Origin: Novosphingobium sp.
Lineage (GTDB): Bacteria > Pseudomonadota > Alphaproteobacteria > Sphingomonadales > Sphingomonadaceae
Assembly (NCBI GenBank): GCA_029247785.1
Contig: JAQWKP010000001.1
Span: forward strand, 1-61,360
Length of the DNA stretch: 61,360 bases
Direction of reading: 5' to 3'
Shown: positions 2,319-27,737 of the stretch, one piece after another
Numbering within the stretch: the first letter of the stretch is position 1
Layout: each line of letters begins with the position of its first letter
Notes under the pieces: generated by a model
The model's database searches: none
Told to the model about the DNA's origin: nothing
What the model saw: the letters and a program-made list of their open reading frames with translations, nothing else
Translations under genes and position numbers: made by a program

Positions 2319-2957
2319 ATGTTCCGCGCTTCCGCCATGATCCGAAACTTCGTCGTTGTCGCCATTTTGGCGGTTACACCTGTCGCCGCGCACCAGGCTG
2401 CGGCCCAGTCCAATGGCGTGACTCTCGATCAGGCCGTTGCCGCTCTGCGGGGCATTTCGACGCTCCGCGCTGATTTCATCCAGACCGATCGCAATGGCCA
2501 GCGCGTCAAAGGCGCGCTTACGCTCAAGCGGCCGGGCCGGATCCGGTTCCAATACGAAAAATCGGTCAACATGTTGATTGTCGGCGATGGCAAATCGCTC
2601 ACTCTGATCGATTATGACGTCAAGCAGGTCCAGCGCTGGCCGATCAAGAGAAGCCCGCTCGGCGCGCTGCTTGATCCCAAGCGTGACATGGCCCGCTATG
2701 GTAAACTCAAACCAACCAACAGTCCTGATATCGCCAGTGTCGAGGTGCGCGATAGCAGGCATCCTGAATACGGTACTATCACGCTGGTTTTCGTGCGCGA
2801 TCCTTCTGCGCCGGGTGGGCTCGAACTGGTGAGCTGGGTGGCGCTCGATTCGCAAAACAAGCGGACCACGATTCGGTTGACCAATCACCGTTATGGTGTC
2901 CCTGTTTCCAACAGCAGCTTTCGCTGGAGAGACCCGCGCCCGAGGGTTCGTCGATAG
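2319..2957 (+). CDS. LolA-family outer-membrane lipoprotein carrier protein
   Basis: Signal peptide; 'LRADFIQTDRNGQRVKGALTLKRPGRIRFQYEK' LolA signature. Confidence 0.9.
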   Translation: MFRASAMIRNFVVVAILAVTPVAAHQAAAQSNGVTLDQAVAALRGISTLRADFIQTDRNGQRVKGALTLKRPGRIRFQYEKSVNMLIVGDGKSLTLIDYDVKQVQRWPIKRSPLGALLDPKRDMARYGKLKPTNSPDIASVEVRDSRHPEYGTITLVFVRDPSAPGGLELVSWVALDSQNKRTTIRLTNHRYGVPVSNSSFRWRDPRPRVRR

Positions 2958-3060
2958 CAGGAAACGCATCGCCGCAGGCTGTGCGGGCATTGCGACAAAC
3001 TGCGACAATTCGTTCAGCCTCGTTCACTTGGCAGAAAGCAAAAACCTCCTAAATATATAG

Positions 3061-3187
3061 CTGTCAAAGCGGTCCGAGGCGGGTTTCCCCCCTGTTGCCC
3101 GCGCCTCCTGGTGGCAGCTTTGGCATTAGCGTGACGAACGCTCAAAGGAACCCTCGTCCCAATGCCCCCGGGGCGAGGGTTTTTCTT
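3061..3187 (+). ncRNA. Probable small RNA, suhB / alpha-r8 (MmgR)-like, ending in an intrinsic terminator
   Basis: Promoter-like TTGGCA (3028-3033), 16 nt, TAAATA (3050-3055); stem GAGGC-GGG/CCC-GCGCCTC with C-rich loop 'TTTCCCCCCTGTTG'; stem CTTTGgcattAGCGT/ACGCT-CAAAG; terminator ACCCTCG...CGAGGGTTTTTC. The C-rich loop resembles the UUUCCUCCCU motif I recall for alpha-r8 sRNAs. Confidence 0.55.
3150..3187 (+). terminator. Rho-independent terminator
   Basis: accctcg-tcccaatgcccccgggg-cgagggt followed by a T-rich tract (ttttctttcttt). Confidence 0.85.
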
Positions 3188-3203
3188 TCTTTCAGATGCG
3201 AAA

Positions 3204-3423
3204 TTCTTTGTTTGGTACGGTCATGACATCCGTCATGACCTTGGCATCACCGGCCCGCTCCCCCTACCCAACCACCCGACAGGATACGCTTGGGGTGGTT
3301 GGGTAGGGGGAGCGGGCCGGTGATGCTAGCCAGTCACGGATGTGATTGGCGTACCCGACAAGGACTCTGGGCCGGTTATGCTAGCCAGTCACGGATGTGA
3401 TTGGCGTACCCGACAAAGACTCC
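3204..3423. repeat. Intergenic palindromic repeat element, copy A, with long hairpin and tandemly duplicated right end
   Basis: Small palindrome GGTCATGAC-atcc-GTCATGACC (3219-3240); 34-bp perfect inverted repeat 3244-3277 / 3293-3326 with 15-nt loop; 55-bp tandem duplication (3314-3368, 3369-3423) ending 'CGTACCCGACAA(A/G)GACTC'. Confidence 0.9.
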
Positions 3424-3484: not shown

Positions 3485-4279
3485 ATGGTCAAGATCGTCA
3501 GTTGGAACATCAATTCGGTGCGTCTGCGCATGCCGCAGATCGAGCGCTTCATCCTGCAACACGCGCCCGACGTGCTGTGCCTGCAGGAAATCAAGACTCT
3601 CGAGGAGTTCTTCCCGCATGAGGCCTTCGAGAAGCTCGGCTATGCCCATCGCGCTGTCCACGGCCAGAAAGGCTATCACGGCGTTGCCACGGTGAGCCGT
3701 ATTCCGATGCAGGAATACAGCCGGCATGACTGGCAGGCCAATGGTGAGGCGCGCCATGTCGGTATCGAATTGCTTGGCCCCGGCCAGGGAACGGTGGTCG
3801 AGAATGTCTATGTCCCCGCCGGGGGCGATGTCGCCGATCGCGAGGTGAACCCGAAATTCGGGCAGAAGCTGGATTTCCTGGGCCGGATGACGCGCTGGGC
3901 CGATACAATCGAGCGCCCGACCCTGATTGTTGGCGACTTCAATATCGCCCCGCTCGAATGCGATGTGTGGAATCACAAGCAATTGCTGAAGGTCGTCAGC
4001 CATACGCCGCTCGAAGTGGAAACGCTGGCTCGCTTTCAGCAAGCCCATGGCTGGGTCGATCTCGGCCGCGAATTTATCCCGGCGCCCGAGCGCTATTTCA
4101 GCTGGTGGAGCTACCGGGCAAAGGATTGGCGGGCGAATGATCGCGGCCGACGGCTCGATCATATGTGGGCATCGCCCGAACTGGCCAAACAGGCAAAGGG
4201 CCATGAAGTGTTCGAGGACACGCGCGACTGGGTGCAATGTTCCGACCATGTGCCGCTGATTACGGAATTCGACCTCTGA
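3485..4279 (+). CDS. xth: Exodeoxyribonuclease III
   Basis: 'MVKIVSWNINSVRLRMPQIERFI', 'DVLCLQEIKT', 'IVGDFNIAPLECDVWN', 'DHVPLITEFDL'; upstream part of the ORF is encoded by the repeat. Confidence 0.95.
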   Translation: MVKIVSWNINSVRLRMPQIERFILQHAPDVLCLQEIKTLEEFFPHEAFEKLGYAHRAVHGQKGYHGVATVSRIPMQEYSRHDWQANGEARHVGIELLGPGQGTVVENVYVPAGGDVADREVNPKFGQKLDFLGRMTRWADTIERPTLIVGDFNIAPLECDVWNHKQLLKVVSHTPLEVETLARFQQAHGWVDLGREFIPAPERYFSWWSYRAKDWRANDRGRRLDHMWASPELAKQAKGHEVFEDTRDWVQCSDHVPLITEFDL

Positions 4280-11867: not shown

Positions 11868-11910
11868 CGGTGGTCACGGATGTGACTAGCGCACCAGACA
11901 GGCAATCTCA
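11868..11910. repeat. Partial (right-end) copy C of the intergenic repeat family
   Basis: 'GGTCACGGATGTGACTAGCGCACCAGACAGGCAATCTC' aligns with 'AGTCACGGATGTGATTGGCGTACCCGACAAAGACTCC' of copy A. Confidence 0.65.
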
Positions 11911-11970: not shown

Positions 11971-14244
11971 ATGACCAGCGCCGCTGTCGAAGCCTCCCGG
12001 ACGATCCTTACTGGCCTGCACGATGTCATGGCATCGCGCAGCCATGCCCAGGCGAAGCTCAACGACGTCGTCGACGTGATCGGGAAATCCCTCGATAGCG
12101 AGGTTTGCTCGATCTATTTGTTGCGCGAAGGCATGCTTGAGCTGTTTGCGACGCGCGGCCTTGCGCAGGAAGCGGTGCACGTCACGCGGATGAGTATTGG
12201 TGAGGGCCTGGTCGGTGTGATCGGGGAGGGGATCGAGACCCTCAACCTCGCTGAAGCCACCTCCCATCCTGACTTTTCATATCGTCCCGAGACGGGCGAA
12301 GAGAAATTCCATTCCTTTGCCGGCGTTCCGATTGTGCGCCGGGAGCGCGCGGTTGGCGTGTTATGCGTGCAGCATGCCGATCCGCGCCGCTATGAGGATG
12401 TGGAGATTGAAGCGCTCCAGACTGTCGCGATGGTGCTGTCCGAGTTGATCACCAACGCTGAATTCGTCGATGAGGACGAAGTCGAAGGGCGCAACGCACA
12501 GACCGGCACGGAACAGATGCAGGGCTTCACTCTGGTCAAGGGCCTGGCGAGCGGTTTTGCAGTATACCACCAGCCACGTATCACCATCGAACATGTCGTT
12601 GCCGAAGATATCGAGGCAGAACGGCAGAGGGTCTATCTCGCCTTCGACAAAATGCGCGAGCAGATCGATCGCATGGCGGGCCAGGCCGAATTTGGCAGCG
12701 CCGGCGAGCATGACGAAGTGCTCGAGACCTACCGCATGTTCGCTTATGACGAGGGCTGGTCGCGGCGGATCAACGAAGCCATCGATTCCGGCTTGACTGC
12801 AGAGGCAGCGATCGAGCGCGTCCAGCAGCGCACGCGCATGCGCATGCGGGAGATCGACGACCCGCTGCTGGCCGATCGAATGCATGATCTGGAGGATTTG
12901 TCGAACCGCTTGCTCCGGATCGTCTCGGGCCAGATCGGCACGGCGGCGAGCCTTGGCCTGCGCCGCGACACGATCCTGATCGCCCGCAACCTTGGTCCTG
13001 CCGAGCTTCTCGAATATGACCGGCGGCGTCTCAAGGGCGTGATCCTTGAGGAGGGTTCGCTCACCTCGCATGTCGTCATCGTTGCCCGCGCGATGGGCTT
13101 GCCGGTGCTGGGCCGCGTGGCGGGTCTGCGTGGTTTCGTGCGTGAGGGCGATCACCTATTGCTCGACGCGGACGAAGGGTTGGCGACCGCCCGGCCTGCT
13201 CCGGGAATGGTCGACGCATTCGAGGCGCGTTTTGCCAAGAGCAGGGAACGCCAGGCGGCGCATGCTGCGCTCAGGGATGTCGAACCGATCACCCGCGACG
13301 GCACCCGGATCCAGGTCATGATCAATGCAGGCCTGCGTGACGATGCCGCCAATATCAGCCTGACCGGCGCTGACGGCATCGGCTTGTTCCGCACCGAATT
13401 TCAGTTTCTCGTATCGGCGACGTTGCCTTCGCGCGAACGCCAGACCCGGCTTTACCGCGATGTGCTTGACATTGCTGGCGACAAGCCGGTCAAGTTTCGC
13501 ACGGTCGATATCGGCGGCGACAAGTCGCTGCCCTATTTGCGTCATGACGACGGCGAGGGAGAGGAGAACCCGGCGATGGGCTGGCGCGCGCTGCGTGTCG
13601 CGCTGGAACGCGAGAGCCTGCTCAAGGTGCAGGCGCGGGCCTTGATTGAAGCCAGCGCTGGCCGAACTCTCAATGTGATGTTCCCGATGGTCGCCGAAGC
13701 CTGGGAGTTCGACGCGGCCAAGCAGGTCTTCGACACCCAAATCAGTTTCCTCAAGGGCAAGAAAAAGCAGCTGCCTGAGTCTATCCGCTACGGTGTGATG
13801 CTTGAGGTGCCGTCGCTGGCGGAACAGCTCGATCTGATCGCGCCCAAGGTCTCGTTCCTTTCGATCGGGACGAATGATCTTACCCAGTTCCTGTTTGCGG
13901 CGGATCGGGCCAATCCCAAGCTTGCAGCGCGTTACGACTGGTTGAGCCCGTCGATCCTGCGCTTTATCAGGCGGATCGTCACTACGCTCGAACCCTATGA
14001 AGTCGATCTTGCGGTCTGCGGCGAGATGGGCGGCCGGCAGCTTGAAGCGCTTGCCCTGATCGGGGTCGGCATCAAGCGCCTGTCGATCACCCCGGCTGCG
14101 GTCGGCCCGATCAAGGACCTGGTGCGCACGCTCAACGTTTCCGAAGTTGCCGAGGCGATGGACGGCTGGCTGGCATCGCCCCCGCCTAACCTGCGGGCTG
14201 CGCTTGAAGAATGGGCGTGCCTCAAGGGGATCCACTGCGATTGA
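11971..14244 (+). CDS. ptsP: PTS-Ntr enzyme I, PtsP (GAF + PEP-utilizing domains)
   Basis: N-terminal GAF; 'EEGSLTSHVVIVARAMGLPVL', 'GIGLFRTEFQFL', 'SIGTNDLTQFLFAADR'. Confidence 0.95.
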   Translation: MTSAAVEASRTILTGLHDVMASRSHAQAKLNDVVDVIGKSLDSEVCSIYLLREGMLELFATRGLAQEAVHVTRMSIGEGLVGVIGEGIETLNLAEATSHPDFSYRPETGEEKFHSFAGVPIVRRERAVGVLCVQHADPRRYEDVEIEALQTVAMVLSELITNAEFVDEDEVEGRNAQTGTEQMQGFTLVKGLASGFAVYHQPRITIEHVVAEDIEAERQRVYLAFDKMREQIDRMAGQAEFGSAGEHDEVLETYRMFAYDEGWSRRINEAIDSGLTAEAAIERVQQRTRMRMREIDDPLLADRMHDLEDLSNRLLRIVSGQIGTAASLGLRRDTILIARNLGPAELLEYDRRRLKGVILEEGSLTSHVVIVARAMGLPVLGRVAGLRGFVREGDHLLLDADEGLATARPAPGMVDAFEARFAKSRERQAAHAALRDVEPITRDGTRIQVMINAGLRDDAANISLTGADGIGLFRTEFQFLVSATLPSRERQTRLYRDVLDIAGDKPVKFRTVDIGGDKSLPYLRHDDGEGEENPAMGWRALRVALERESLLKVQARALIEASAGRTLNVMFPMVAEAWEFDAAKQVFDTQISFLKGKKKQLPESIRYGVMLEVPSLAEQLDLIAPKVSFLSIGTNDLTQFLFAADRANPKLAARYDWLSPSILRFIRRIVTTLEPYEVDLAVCGEMGGRQLEALALIGVGIKRLSITPAAVGPIKDLVRTLNVSEVAEAMDGWLASPPPNLRAALEEWACLKGIHCD

Positions 14245-14433
14245 GTCCTTATCGGGTGCGCAATCATCCTTCTCTGATTGCTCGCAACGCCGACCTGCTC
14301 TCCCGGTAATCACGGCGAGGTTATATTTCATGGGCATGTCTTGCCAGCGAAACCCCTCGCCGCATTGACATTGACATGGATGCAAAGATGATCGCGGCCA
14401 TCCTTACGCAACGAATACGGGTCGGAAAGGTGC

Positions 14434-27635: not shown

Positions 27636-27643
27636 GAGAGATT

Positions 27644-27737
27644 TTTTGTTTGGTACGGCCATGACATCCGTCATGGCCTTGCGGCACCGGCCCGCAAGCC
27701 GGTCGCGGATGCGACTGGCGCACCCGACAAAGACTCC
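27644..27737. repeat. Intergenic palindromic repeat element, copy B
   Basis: 'TTTGTTTGGTACGGCCATGACATCCGTCATGGCCTTGCGGCACCGGCCCGC...GCGGATGCGACTGGCGCACCCGACAAAGACTCC'; same two ends as copy A. Confidence 0.9.

Follow-up and report, generated by a model that had tools for sequence, protein, structure and literature searches.

What is the long palindromic repeat that separates lolA from xthA in the window, the stretch of 61,360 nt of Novosphingobium DNA analysed here, and how did it come to lie behind a gene? An earlier note had read it as a non-autonomous REP/MITE-like element. The features of this repeat (copy A) and of the other copies in the window are collected in Table 1.

Table 1. Features of copy A, its flanking genes and the other copies in the window
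Feature	Position	Strand	Basis or remark
Copy A, right end duplicated; left end maybe from about 3199	3204–3423		Sequence, own-genome copies
Arm A hairpin, GGTCATGAC-ATCC-GTCATGACC	3219–3240		Sequence and fold
Core hairpin; arms 3244–3277 and 3293–3326, loop 3278–3292	3244–3326	−	
Conserved apical loop motif GTATCCT (consensus GTAYCCT)	3281–3287	−	
Arm B hairpin, GCCAGTCAC-GGAT-GTGATTGGC	3329–3350		Sequence and fold
First right end, minus strand GAGTCCTTGTCGGGTACGC	3349–3367	−	Sequence
Tandem duplicate of the right end (arm B and end), outer end 3405–3422	3369–3422		
lolA, upstream of copy A, outside the element	2319–2957	+	Pfam LolA
xthA, downstream of copy A, outside the element	3485–4279	+	Pfam Exo_endo_phos, orthologues
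Copy B, both end regions and arms, no core hairpin	27638–27737		
Degenerate end remnant	14243–14304		Its GAGTCC shares bases with the TGA stop of a gene that ends at 14244
Degenerate right-end remnant	11873–11908		

Architecture and distribution of the repeat

The description of the locus given in the earlier note is borne out by measurement. The inverted repeat formed by the core arms is perfect, with 34 nt of 100% complementarity around a 15-nt loop; the right end is duplicated in tandem (3314–3367 against 3369–3422, 54 nt, 96%, 55 nt from start to start); the inverted ends are reflected in a 79% match of 3205–3364 to its own reverse complement; the repeat stops 62 nt before the xthA ATG (3485), where about 60 had been given; and no transposase is found inside copy A. 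The folding energy of copy A is −80.7 kcal/mol, versus −35.6 ± 3.5 kcal/mol for shuffled sequences (z = −13; 0 of 200 as low), and by its loop motif the core has its canonical orientation on the minus strand. The hairpin is not an assembly artefact, because the same hairpin recurs in many independent genomes, and copies in its own genome together with relatives in other genomes exclude a repeat confined to this locus.

When the own draft genome (3.99 Mb in 385 contigs) was searched at the DNA level, 48 matches at ~25 places came up, several of them at contig ends, as is usual for a repeat, and a covariance model of the core recognised 12 core copies (24 matches, counting both strands). Across 24 selected genomes the core count went from 0 to at least about 70 (matches halved), the high counts being lower bounds, as scoring was limited to 150 candidates per genome. 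A class-wide sample of 289 genomes contained 24 with a core match (E ≤ 1e-5), from 17 families, and a pattern scan of named genomes yielded at least 119 core stretches. Among the matches listed are Sphingomonas, Novosphingobium, Sphingopyxis, Sphingobium, Hephaestia and erythrobacters and, beyond Sphingomonadales, records of Kiloniellales, Minwuiaceae, Roseospira and Acetobacteraceae; the listed titles outside that group ('Bacillus', 'Arthrobacter', a 'Mesoflavibacter' MAG) may be mislabelled. The family consists of multiple dispersed copies devoid of genes, as expected of MITEs.

Full copies are bounded by terminal inverted repeats and contain three hairpins (arm A, core and arm B). In the congeneric genome G005 the order is end GAGNCYGTTTG, arm A, core, arm B, end, and the arms are drawn from three modules, which were spotted by eye first and typed by script afterwards. 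Arms A and B carried the same module in none of the 15 typed copies, 5.0 being expected (p = 2e-4). Like arms could pair into one long palindrome, and avoidance of this pairing may be the reason for the difference. Copies lacking the core occur, copy B of the window among them; it starts directly after a TGA stop, and the CGA at its other end differs by a single base from a repeat of that TGA. Two bases of another TGA stop come from the remnant at 14243.

In relatives, the orthologous lolA-xthA gaps that were readable lack the element; that of G019 holds a short stretch, maybe a remnant. The same gap in the window contains, at about 2990–3190 (+), a conserved stretch that resembles a small RNA gene, with conserved blocks GGCGGGTTTCCCCCC and GCGTGACGAACGC and a terminator-like end, CCCTCG...CGAGGGTTTTT; it occupies this gap in at least 10 relatives and has no Rfam match. 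Partial duplications of the ends recur near the base of the core in several genomes (window 3367–3369; L016, L067, L306), with GACTC adjoining GGGCCGG or its equivalent at the junction; one possible cause is a nested insertion with a later deletion.

Ends, targets and the candidate transposase

The terminal inverted repeats of the best-preserved copies read GAGNCYGTTTGRAAA. The G005 end motif occurs 31 times in that genome; the reversed control and six further genomes of the genus have none. Exact 3-bp repeats accompany 9 of 20 end pairs in G005. When core-bearing copies with both ends recognised were considered (15 end pairs of 14 elements from four genomes, including a Novosphingobium resinovorum plasmid, L208), nine pairs had an exact 3-bp repeat, in all cases TNA (permutation p = 1.5e-4), and the flanking triplets were TNA in 33 of 61. 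Gene calling relied on a simple codon model of our own that missed lolA of the window, and the stop-codon counts are therefore approximate: a called gene stops within 60 nt of 27 ends, and 12 of these ends lay at offset 0 or −1, where the target triplet is the stop codon or the first base of the element completes it. The position right behind genes follows from the target, because TNA includes TGA and TAA. No filled and empty site pair with exact junctions was obtained. CcrM sites were rejected as a reading of the ends: GANTC is present in some of them, but the G005 ends vary (GAGCC, GAGAC).

The GAGNCYGTTTGRAAA subfamily shares its terminal inverted repeats with insertion sequences in three sister genomes. 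The one in G007 is a 905-bp IS5-family element with ends GAGGCTGTTTGGAAAAT and GAGTCTGTTTGGAAAAT, a duplicated TTA and an intact transposase frame (NF033580); similar IS5-family elements are found in G451 (TTA) and G035 (TAA). A MITE and an IS with identical ends were not found together in one genome, the IS that matches the G005 ends sitting in other genomes. G005 has another IS5 element, in 7 copies with GAG ends, which shows 3-bp repeats at 7 of 7 sites, TNA at six. In the own genome, contig C164 carries an IS5-family gene flanked by GAGCCCG ends, with TCA at either side. Elements of the IS1031 group are known to prefer TNA and to make a 3-bp repeat (PMC12016507).

Considering what is observed, namely (i) the family and its architecture, (ii) the 3-bp duplications, (iii) the coincidence with stop codons, and (iv) the autonomous IS of sister genomes that share these ends, we propose a model in which the IS5 transposases of the sister genomes would have moved copies of this family. 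It is probable that the repeat is a gene-less mobile element whose best-preserved copies were brought to stop codons by an IS5-type transposase. In the model, the enzyme acts on the terminal inverted repeats and would insert the element at TNA, duplicating those 3 bp. A TTA target joined to the GAG end of the element would give TAG. Insertion at a stop codon would leave the upstream gene intact, and surviving copies would sit just behind genes. The difference between arms A and B would hinder their mutual pairing. The structure seems to be maintained at the level of DNA, not of RNA.

The copies in the window fall into a subfamily whose ends are a variant, GAGTCTTTGTYGGGTRCG. It is their architecture and their core that assign them to the family, and not a target duplication, because no exact one was seen in this subfamily, copy A included, and a pattern search of 41 genomes retrieved no IS with the GAGTCTTTGTYGGGTRCG ends, only scattered ends and element-sized pairs. 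We infer that this subfamily moved as the best-preserved copies did.

The core hairpin and what maintains it

The function of the conserved core is the most interesting question raised here. In an alignment of 85 cores, restricted to rows in which the loop motif has no more than one mismatch, 97.4% of cells pair, and 210 double changes were counted, where shuffles gave 53 and slid controls no more than 32. Conservation of the outer arm base is overstated, as the search pattern included it; the pattern did not extend to the inner pairs or the loop. Among 250 cores not chosen for their loop, 106 match GTAYCCT exactly, versus 0.7 with shuffled loops. The surroundings of the core differ by lineage and the core is present in distant families; IS5 ends alone are insufficient to explain this. 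Copies flanked by CTAG are seen in Kiloniellales, for which an IS630-type TA target is a candidate reading only.

Tentatively, and with low confidence, it can be suggested that recognition of the loop GTAYCCT and the arm base GGCCCGCTCCCCC by a putative protein keeps an ancient DNA hairpin across alphaproteobacterial orders. The IS5-type ends would then be its current vehicle only, and two unlike side arms would be selected so that the element folds into a junction and not into one long palindrome.

Somewhat less likely still is that the core is a DNA-hairpin element of its own, bound by a putative mobilising or structural protein, to which IS5-type ends served as a vehicle in some lineages. 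Its occurrence in 17 families among varying surroundings, the existence of elements without it and its conserved loop motif would suit such an element, as would a core likeness of 0.81 within genomes versus 0.69 between genomes, although the latter is also expected from amplification of whole elements. No candidate for a core-recognising protein was found and no insertion boundary at the core itself was demonstrated. An independent core would be compatible with, not opposed to, the explanation by IS5 ends.

An RNA element, in which a hairpin in the 3′ untranslated region protects upstream transcripts or tunes operon expression and copies are kept for that reason, would account for the median of 36 nt from stop codon to core, for the enrichment in convergent and depletion in divergent gaps (44 convergent and 19 divergent, versus 63 and 112 in other gaps; p = 4e-6), for copies inside operons, such as the rpsL-rpsG gap of three genomes and the capsid/adaptor junction of phage-like clusters, and for the strong compensatory changes in the core. 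However, on the transcribed strand of tandem contexts, as inferred from the flanking genes, G-U pairs (44) do not exceed A-C pairs (65), the loop motif is unoriented relative to genes (34 versus 33), and the place behind stops equally follows from the TNA target. By these two measures, G-U against A-C and loop orientation, no RNA selection on the hairpin was detected. Maintenance as DNA, or self-correction of the palindrome in replication, fits better, because RNA selection should favour G-U; self-correction could produce the compensatory changes without any selection. Rfam gave no family at gathering score, the sub-threshold matches being mostly to microRNA models that fit any long hairpin. 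We regard the RNA element as improbable; an effect of the hairpin on mRNA may be a by-product.

The copies within operons include divergent ones in the rpsL-rpsG gap of three genomes of the genus (L029 917–1034, L044, L045; genes identified by eye), and this essential operon therefore tolerates the hairpin. In two phage-like contigs of about 14–15 kb (L181 6351–6417, L192 8807–8872), the core separates the major capsid gene from the head-tail adaptor gene, a junction shared by both, and the contigs may represent clusters for a gene transfer agent.

A REP/REPIN element whose hairpins are recognised by a RAYT (HUH tyrosine transposase) is very improbable, even though the element is palindromic, intergenic and placed in tandem and convergent gaps as REPs are (PMC3733652): RAYT is rejected as the general mobiliser because Y1 transposase genes are absent from 9 of 12 core-rich genomes, the only one in the own genome is by our reading of the IS200 type, and both the 3-bp target duplications and the match of the ends to IS5 speak for a DDE enzyme. 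By eye, neither a GTAG nor a CGTC tag is regularly found next to arm A, arm B or the core among the copies read. The IS200-type gene lies at a contig end and is apparently split over two contigs (G000:C134:39-395 and C136:5-103; L031, L032).

Hence the two halves of the original reading part company. Its MITE-like half holds, in that the repeat is multicopy, dispersed and bounded by terminal inverted repeats, with 3-bp duplications in its best-preserved relatives and autonomous IS5-family partners in sister genomes; the REP-like half, taken strictly, is not supported, since no RAYT was found in the own genome, most core-rich genomes have no Y1 transposase, and the architecture is unlike that of tagged REPs. 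Overall, the repeat represents an IS5-type MITE family whose interior is unusual.

Relation to known systems

As far as we searched, in Rfam 15 and open-access papers (ISfinder and the subscription literature lying outside this scope), the repeat is widespread and unnamed: looking in open-access papers for palindromes of Sphingomonadales, or for the core sequence as text, returned nothing relevant. If the proposal is borne out, the TNA target would explain the stop-codon position of a widespread mobile repeat of Alphaproteobacteria, and the repeat would provide a hairpin of DNA, deeply conserved and with a fixed loop motif, for which a binding partner can be sought directly. Counting G-U against A-C pairs on the transcribed strand offers in itself a simple way to tell whether bacterial palindromes are maintained as RNA or as DNA.

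The rhizobial intergenic mosaic elements (RIME) are likewise alphaproteobacterial, intergenic mosaics of palindromes, a likeness by description only; our literature search found no description of RIME. GTAG- and CGTC-tagged REPs resemble the repeat in being palindromic and intergenic, behind genes, in Alphaproteobacteria (PMC3733652). Many REP families prefer dimers of unlike units, and the CGTC repeats have no dedicated transposase (PMC3733652). REP stems, however, measure 5–13 bp and carry a terminal tag (PMC3733652), whereas the core stem exceeds 30 bp, with a conserved 7-nt loop motif, and the element has IS5-type ends and duplications.

The closest likeness is to the IS1031 group of the IS5 family and the MITEs derived from IS5-type elements, with which the repeat shares GAG ends and a TNA target with 3-bp duplication (PMC12016507), as well as the lack of coding capacity and the presence in the genus of IS5-family elements with the same ends. 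It differs from them in the variant ends of the window subfamily, for which no partner is known, in an interior that is not a shortened IS but three hairpins with unlike arms, and in a core that is conserved over a far wider range than any one end sequence.
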